From: an uncultured Acetobacteraceae bacterium
GTDB lineage: Bacteria > Pseudomonadota > Alphaproteobacteria > Acetobacterales > Acetobacteraceae
Direction of reading: 5' to 3'
NCBI GenBank assembly: GCA_937873225.1
Contig: CALMVN010000239.1
Span: 1-34,759, forward strand
Length of the DNA stretch: 34,759 nucleotides
A program made the position numbers and the translations under genes. Of this stretch, positions 16,660 through 18,234 are shown piece by piece. Numbering within the stretch: the stretch's first letter is position 1; each line of letters opens with the position of its first letter. The notes under the pieces were generated by a model. That model did not search any database, was not told the DNA's origin, and saw only the letters and a program-made list of their open reading frames with translations.

Positions 16660-16674
16660 ACGAAGGGAGGTTTT

Positions 16675-16791
16675 TTGGGCGGCCGCGGCATATTGGGCTT
16701 GCGCTGGGGGGCAGCAGGACCTATTTCCCGCCACCTTGGCCCAAGGGGGCGGTCCCGCCCAACAGGCTGTCTACTGGTTTGGGGGTACGTG
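16675..16791 (+). promoter_or_regulatory. Candidate structured 5' leader RNA of speD
   Basis: Nested stems TTGGGCGG(16675-16682)/CCGCCCAA(16755-16762), TTGGGC(16693-16698)/GCCCAA(16739-16744), GCTG(16703-16706)/CAGC(16712-16715); competing hairpin GGGCG(16747-16751)/CGCCC(16756-16760) and possible CCCAA/TTGGG pairing near the start codon. Confidence 0.45.
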
Positions 16792-17256
16792 ATGAACGCA
16801 CTTGCTCAACTGGGGATGGTCTCGGATCTTCCGAGCAATATCCAGATGTTCCATGTTCCTTCCGCTGGTTCCGCGGAAGAGGCCAAGGATTATTTCGTCG
16901 AGAAGGACGGCATGAGGTTTGCCGGAACGCATCTTCTCGTCGACCTGTGGGATGCCACCAACCTGGGCGATCCCGAGATGATCGACCGCGCTCTGTGCGA
17001 CGCGGCGGTTGCGGCCGGTGCGACGATCCTGCACAGCCATTTCCATCACTTCTCACCCAACGGCGGCGTGTCCGGCGTGGTGGTGCTGGCGGAAAGCCAC
17101 ATCTCGATCCACACCTGGCCGGAACGGGATTTCGCTGCGGTCGACATCTTCATGTGCGGCTCGTGCGATCCGCATCTGGCGATTCCGGTGATGCAGCGCA
17201 CGTTCCAGGCTGCACGCGTCGAGCTGGACGAGCAGCGACGCGGCCGGATCGGCTGA
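16792..17256 (+). CDS. speD: S-adenosylmethionine decarboxylase proenzyme
   Basis: 'GTHLLVDLWDATNLGDPEMIDRALCDAA..ILHSHFHHFSPNGGVSGVVVLAESHISIHTWPERDFAAVDIFMCG' with ESH pyruvoyl processing site. Confidence 0.96.
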   Translation: MNALAQLGMVSDLPSNIQMFHVPSAGSAEEAKDYFVEKDGMRFAGTHLLVDLWDATNLGDPEMIDRALCDAAVAAGATILHSHFHHFSPNGGVSGVVVLAESHISIHTWPERDFAAVDIFMCGSCDPHLAIPVMQRTFQAARVELDEQRRGRIG

Positions 17257-17364: not shown

Positions 17365-18234
17365 ATGACCGAAACGTGGATCAACGAGACCCTGTATCCG
17401 GGCTGGGGACAACGCTTCCGGATCCGGCGGGAACTGGCGCGCGTGCGCAGCGACTTCCAGGAGATCCTGGTGTTCGACAGCGAAACGCACGGTCGCGTGC
17501 TGTTGCTGGACGGCGTCATCCAGATCACCGAGCGCGACGAGTTCGTCTACCAGGAGATGCTGGCGCACGTCCCGCTGCTGATCCATCCCGAGCCGCGGAG
17601 CGTTCTCGTCATTGGCGGCGGCGATGGCGGCGTGCTGCGCCGCGTGCTCGAGCATTCCGGCGTCGCGCGTGCGGTGATGGTGGAGATAGACGGGGAGGTG
17701 ATCCGGCTGTCGCAGGAGTTCCTGCCGAAGATCGCAGGAGACGCCTGGAAGGATCCAAGGGCCGAGATCATCGTCGGCGACGGCATAGCCCATGTCCGTG
17801 AGGCGCCGGACGCGAGCGTCGACGTGATCATCGTCGACAGCACCGACCCTGTCGGCGTGGGCGAGGTTCTGTTCACCGACGACTTCTACGAGAACTGCGC
17901 CCGTGTGCTGACGCCCGACGGGCTGATCGTGAACCAGTGCGGCGTCCCGTTCATGCAGGCCGACGAGCTGCGGGACACAAGCGCACGGCGCGCCAGGGTC
18001 TTCCCGACGGTGTCCGCCTATGTCGTTGCGGTTCCGACCTATGTCGGCGGCTTCATGACCCTGGGCATCGCCGGCAAGGGGAGCGCCCTGGCGAACCGAC
18101 CCGACGCCGCAACCACGCGGTCACGCGCCGCCCGTGCCGGCATCCTCGGCACCACGCGCTACTGGACGCCGGCGATCCAGACCGGCGCCTTCGACCTGCC
18201 GCCCTGCATCGCCGAGCACCTGCCGTCGCGGTAG
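17365..18234 (+). CDS. speE: Polyamine aminopropyltransferase (spermidine synthase)
   Basis: 'LLLDGVIQITERDEFVYQEMLAHVPLLIHPEPRSVLVIGGGDGGVLRRVLEH', 'VDVIIVDSTDPVGVGEVLFTDDFY'. Confidence 0.96.
   Translation: MTETWINETLYPGWGQRFRIRRELARVRSDFQEILVFDSETHGRVLLLDGVIQITERDEFVYQEMLAHVPLLIHPEPRSVLVIGGGDGGVLRRVLEHSGVARAVMVEIDGEVIRLSQEFLPKIAGDAWKDPRAEIIVGDGIAHVREAPDASVDVIIVDSTDPVGVGEVLFTDDFYENCARVLTPDGLIVNQCGVPFMQADELRDTSARRARVFPTVSAYVVAVPTYVGGFMTLGIAGKGSALANRPDAATTRSRAARAGILGTTRYWTPAIQTGAFDLPPCIAEHLPSR

Follow-up and report, generated by a model that had tools for sequence, protein, structure and literature searches.

As judged by sequence comparison, a cis-acting RNA lies at the start of speD, the S-adenosylmethionine decarboxylase gene, within the 34,759-nt stretch of DNA analysed here (the window). 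It covers roughly positions 16735-16845, that is, a short leader and the first ~18 codons of the gene. Its helices undergo compensatory change across species, and it is consistently linked to this one gene. The element probably controls initiation of speD translation by alternating between two helices, P4 (off) and P5 (on); in this way the cell can probably adjust how much polyamine it makes. The original prediction of a cis-regulatory RNA at speD holds in that such an RNA is present, but its 5′ side is shorter than was drawn and 18 codons of speD belong to it. S-adenosylmethionine decarboxylase commits SAM to spermidine, and few descriptions of its regulation exist for Alphaproteobacteria; many families of this class, acetic acid bacteria included, carry the element at speD. 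The exact bases are now given for mutation tests of polyamine or SAM feedback on translation, and the element bears on the disputed prevalence of natural polyamine-sensing RNAs. The features of the locus are as follows.

16699-16727, + strand: sigma70-type speD promoter (TTGCGC 16699-16704, 17 nt, TATTTC 16722-16727), in columns conserved in relatives
16737-16769, + strand: P1 helix UGGCC/GGCUG, 16737-16741 with 16765-16769; found by RNAalifold unaided, 99.6% of cells paired
16747-16760, + strand: P2 hairpin GGGCG/CGCCC, 16747-16751 with 16756-16760; strong covariation
16769-16779, + strand: 5′ strand of P4 in the leader, GUCU-A-CUGGUU with bulged A16773; found by RNAalifold on alignment A1 unaided, and by pair counts
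16781-16785, + strand: Shine-Dalgarno GGGGG of speD, from the sequence; kept in homologs and enclosed by P4
16792-17256, + strand: speD, S-adenosylmethionine decarboxylase (PF02675, E=1.8e-35, residues 47-151)
16808-16817, + strand: 3′ strand of P4, AACUGGGGAU, speD codons 6-9; found by RNAalifold on A1 and pair counts, with an invariant GGG codon
16810-16845, + strand: P5, alternative helix CUGG 16810-16813 / CCAG 16842-16845, codons 7-8 with 17-18; from pair counts, competes with P4
16821-16835, + strand: P3 hairpin CUCGGA/UCCGAG, speD codons 10-15; from pair exchanges
17365-18234, + strand: speE, spermidine synthase (PF01564, E=3.6e-57)

The gene that follows speD, speE, is likely co-transcribed with it. 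The first 46 codons of SpeD fall outside the Pfam domain, which begins at residue 47 (PF02675).

Support for the helices comes from a comparison of about 200 loci, with leaders taken from 80 named loci chosen by SpeD similarity and then from 40 more divergent ones. The core of the element is the long-range helix P4, which contains a single bulged purine and encloses both the Shine-Dalgarno sequence and the AUG. In SpeD homologs from other alphaproteobacterial families, a common leader tail, CAUCURCUGGUU, is followed by the Shine-Dalgarno sequence and, within the gene, by CCAAUUGGGGAUGGACUUGG; the corresponding Acetobacteraceae codons are CUG GGG AUG GUC UCG GAN NNN CCG AG. When 36 mixed sequences were folded with RNAalifold, a single long helix resulted, in which leader NYRUCU-R-CUGGU pairs with ORF ACUGGGGAUGG, and this helix is P4. 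In alignment A2 (94 matches), which like A4 was fitted to a model, while A1 and A3 are plain MAFFT alignments, P4 and P3 together are 92.5% paired, compared with 28-51% for slid partners, and contain 58 doubly changed cells against 22 after shuffling. The enlarged set gave 89.9% paired and 70 doubly changed cells against 23. The key leader-to-ORF pair of P4 is UA in most loci, AU in L281 and L291, and GC in L284/L285. In P3, the third pair exchanges C-G for U-A in a ratio of 46:37 (39:39 in the enlarged set, where the second pair is UA in 64 and CG in 11), so that CUCGG/CCGAG is replaced by CUUGG/CCAAG, with CCUG/CAGG found in L340 and L365. By parsimony, at least seven state changes have occurred in the third P3 pair and at least five in the key P4 pair; in the stricter, tree-based independent-pairs test, supported branches were too few for a decision. 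In P4, UCU-R-CUGG / YUGGGGA is invariant and the bulged purine conserved, and 4 of its 12 pairs never vary in A1. Two-sided changes in the leader-to-ORF pairs are confined to few lineages, and one P4 pair is broken in a single group of speD leaders (L369-L375). The folding energy of the element is not below that of shuffled sequences (z 0.0) and is uninformative. Half of the element lies inside the gene, and searches limited to intergenic regions may have missed it for that reason.

Upstream of P4, P1 and P2 of Acetobacteraceae form a 5′ hairpin interrupted by an internal loop (16737-16769). Unguided RNAalifold on 45 diverse leaders of the family places P1 (UGGCC with GGCYR) around P2 (GGRC...GYCC). 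Together these helices are 93.3% paired, compared with 27-47% with slid partners, and show 44 doubly changed cells where shuffling gives 15. Both sides have changed in five of the six pairs of P2, and in two deep members P1 is retained although both of its strands differ (UGACC/GGUCA in L089, an Elioraea, and GAACC/GGUUC in L105). P2 is the local GGGCGG...CCGCCC hairpin (16747-16760) that the original prediction had offered as an alternative fold, and it is real. Because P1/P2 abuts P4 and has 1-3 nt in common with it, this domain could bias the choice between P4 and P5 in Acetobacteraceae. Outside this family the domain has no support (mean z -0.36), and the 5′ hairpin was rejected as a universal part of the element since only Acetobacteraceae show it. 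A local hairpin, CCUUG/CAAGG, at the RNA's 5′ end was also discarded, because covariation is absent and slid registers are equally good. The P1-P2 internal loop (16742-16746 / 16761-16764 in the window) is strongly conserved as CMAGG / AACA in Acetobacteraceae; it looks like a binding pocket and was not seen in other families.

The 146-bp leader had significant matches in most sampled genera when compared with 200 genomes of the family, and nearly all of these matches end at the speD start and cover the 3′ part (about 16720-16800). With covariance model R1, the element is usually found once per genome. All strong matches from scans of the class and the phylum that were checked, by SpeD comparison or tblastn, lie at speD. 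Two other orders have the element in 49 of 63 and 20 of 36 genomes, respectively, and in a phylum-wide sample it occurs in Alphaproteobacteria only. In the window's own genome, the speD site is the only high score; the next match of the model there, examined as a second site, is weak (E 0.003) and has no leader-like features. As had been expected, the RNA does not belong to a recognised riboswitch family: Rfam 15 gave no match in the window at either gathering or permissive thresholds, and none at the gathering threshold for nine loci, eight of which carry the element. Sub-threshold matches consisted of miRNA-type noise and one weak L2-Alphaproteobacteria leader in a relative, whose 12.5 bits, with the cut-off at 37.8, are at chance level. 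No earlier report of the speD element was found among the open-licence papers searched.

P4 competes with a second helix, P5, for the same bases of the ORF, and the two cannot coexist. P5 is 86.5% paired, compared with 23-68% when slid, and its first pair is CG in 44 loci and UA in 26; its covariation partly tracks the split between family and class. For the window, the P4-forced ensemble has an energy of -39.5 and the P5-forced ensemble -40.2 kcal/mol, a difference of 0.7, while the free ensemble is dominated by P1, P2, the P4 core, and P3. The original prediction of pairings close to the AUG that exclude each other is borne out by P4 and P5, with partners that differ from those first claimed. 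In particular, pairing of CCCAA segments with the TTGGG close to the speD ATG is not supported; the CUGGUU of the leader pairs with codons 6-8 instead. A direct pairing between codons 17-20 and the leader tail (CUGGUU/AACCAG or UUGGG/CCCAA) is tempting by eye, but its compensatory changes show no excess, and it was set aside.

We propose that P4 and P5 would constitute a switch that acts on translation and gives feedback on spermidine synthesis, P4 most likely being the off state and P5 the on state. In the off state, the leader tail UCU-R-CUGGU would pair with codons 6-9 (ACUGGGGA) to form P4, with the Shine-Dalgarno sequence and the AUG closed into the loop. P4 brackets the ribosome footprint (about -23 to +26, counted from the A of the AUG); once closed, P4 should therefore bar the 30S subunit from binding, whereas P5 and P3 lie downstream of the footprint and should not. 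In the on state, codons 7-8 would pair with codons 17-20 to form P5, stacked on P3, which would leave the leader free and allow translation to begin. Control is presumed to act at the translational level; no intrinsic terminator was found in the speD leader. An upstream reading frame in the leader was also considered and rejected, as some relatives have an in-frame TAG and, by eye, a codon-like pattern is absent.

The pairing of speD with speE suggests end-product feedback, and a substrate or product of the pathway may act as the signal, with spermidine and then SAM as the ranked possible candidates, a protein also being possible. Direct metabolite sensing, in which the RNA binds spermidine (or SAM, dcSAM, or MTA), is a tentative reading that we consider somewhat improbable on balance. 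The candidate site would be the part of P4 rich in wobbles around the bulged purine or, in Acetobacteraceae, the P1/P2 internal loop. The gene context and the invariant UCU-R-CUGG / YUGGGGA speak for this reading; furthermore, spermidine is reported to stabilise bulged double-stranded RNA at the initiation sites of the E. coli polyamine modulon (PMC7177335), and Gram-positives have a spermidine riboswitch (PMC10853860). However, a universal core of one long-range helix and a hairpin is atypical for an aptamer, the aptamer-like internal loop occurs in one family only, and dual pairing of the same bases in P4 and P5 could also explain the conservation of the wobbles. If this reading were true, the speD ORF would itself be part of the switch, and the element might, again tentatively, stand for an alphaproteobacterial polyamine/SAM riboswitch class, unrelated to SAM-I and split between a short leader and the speD ORF. 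Slightly less probable still is a translational operator bound by a protein, either SpeD itself acting autogenously or a GGA-binding candidate of the CsrA type, at two conserved GGGGA boxes. In the ORF, GGGGA hardly varies, and it is frequent in the Shine-Dalgarno sequence of the leader; invariant sequence inside helices suggests recognition.

The P4/P5 element has both likenesses to and differences from known leaders. The spermidine riboswitch is a four-stem variant of SAM-I that acts by transcription termination in Gram-positives (Salvail et al. 2023, PMC10853860). Like it, the speD element precedes genes for polyamine synthesis, speD among them, and would be expected to give spermidine feedback; unlike it, the speD element matches no SAM-I model, has no terminator-like site, and pairs into the ORF. 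SAM-II (RF00521) occurs in Gluconobacter (PMC5756330), and the speD element resembles it in being short and alphaproteobacterial, but matches none of the SAM families in Rfam and differs in conserved sequence, helices, and gene. The speF motif (RF00518), an alphaproteobacterial leader of a polyamine gene that is listed as predicted (PMC3766115), is comparable in host class and gene type, whereas the speD element has no match to its covariance model and differs in gene and structure. For the mRNAs of the E. coli polyamine modulon (oppA, rmf, and others), polyamines are proposed to alter initiation through a bulged-out region (PMC7177335). The speD element likewise has a bulged structure at the translation start; in contrast to those mRNAs, which share no conserved element, it covaries, belongs to one gene, and is found class-wide.

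Ribosomal protein leaders are translational operators that entrap the start region. The speD element may be similar, with a predicted structure around the Shine-Dalgarno sequence and the AUG that reaches into the ORF to control initiation, whereas its gene is metabolic, its sequence is unrelated, and it has no known protein ligand.

Selection could in principle act on an N-terminal peptide (QLGMDLD-like, serving stability or nascent-chain arrest) with the RNA pairing incidental, and the residues ahead of the catalytic domain are likewise conserved. We regard this as unlikely, however, because a peptide cannot explain the covariation of leader bases with codon bases (L281, L291, L284/L285), and because pairing is kept while amino acids change, as with codons CGC-TCG in L284/L285 or with V-S-D versus D-L-D, encoded with CUCGG/CCGAG versus CUUGG/CCAAG. 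Codon choice is also fixed against G+C content. The glycine codon of the motif is GGG in 85 of 85 loci, compared with 147 of 926 glycine codons (16%) in the rest of speD; UUG and CAA codons are retained in genomes of 66-70% G+C, while CUG, GGG, and CAG are retained in Commensalibacter-type loci of 35-39% G+C. Compensatory changes, rare codons retained in spite of genome G+C, and the strict association with speD support RNA-level selection.

The 5′ limit of the RNA would be set by the promoter. Across 84 Acetobacteraceae loci left after thinning, the CTTGC and CTAT/CATG columns keep a constant distance from P1, with CTTG at the same distance in nearly all 84, and they fit the Gluconobacter oxydans promoter motifs ttGnnn / Tatnnn (PMC5756330). 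A strict scan with the E. coli consensus made no call at this promoter. From the position of TTGCGC/TATTTC, the speD transcript should begin at about 16731-16738, downstream of 16682, and with this predicted start the nested leader structure of the original prediction fails the refutation criterion that was given with it. The complementary segments from which it was drawn are present (TTGGGCGG 16675-16682, CCGCCCAA 16755-16762, TTGGGC 16693-16698, GCCCAA 16739-16744, and TTGGG 16779-16783), but the conserved promoter takes in both the outer and the middle 5′ arm as well as the GCTG/CAGC stem, and these should thus not be transcribed. Nor are the arms kept: in 97 relatives from the Acetobacteraceae, the sites of the outer arms can form a longest stem of 4.41 bp on average, compared with 4.43 bp once shuffled. 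The stability of the 160-nt region does not exceed chance (z = +0.99 against dinucleotide shuffles, 166 of the 200 shuffles matching or exceeding its stability). It is therefore very hard to credit the nested structure (16675-16762) as a functional switch.

Several other speD leaders came to light in these comparisons. Three genomes of one genus in another family (L241, L243, L252) have a different, near-identical conserved speD leader, GACGCGUCCGGAAGUCCGUAAGGCCAAGGCGCAGGUGUCAACUC, which is possibly a second, unrelated speD RNA. L208, L217, L247, and L249, from genomes that do not have the element described here, have in common the leader pattern CCCUUCGGUAUCA...CCUUGGUUUGGAGGGGG. In L366-L375, from the order of G783, a conserved block, GGGGGGGCGCUAAGG, stands just upstream of the leader strand of P4. 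Finally, the annotated speD start on the Azospirillum thermophilum plasmid NZ_CP029357.1 (L336) lies in-frame, with a likely earlier start upstream of it; annotation may often be wrong at the N-terminal extensions of SpeD, which would hide elements embedded in the ORF.
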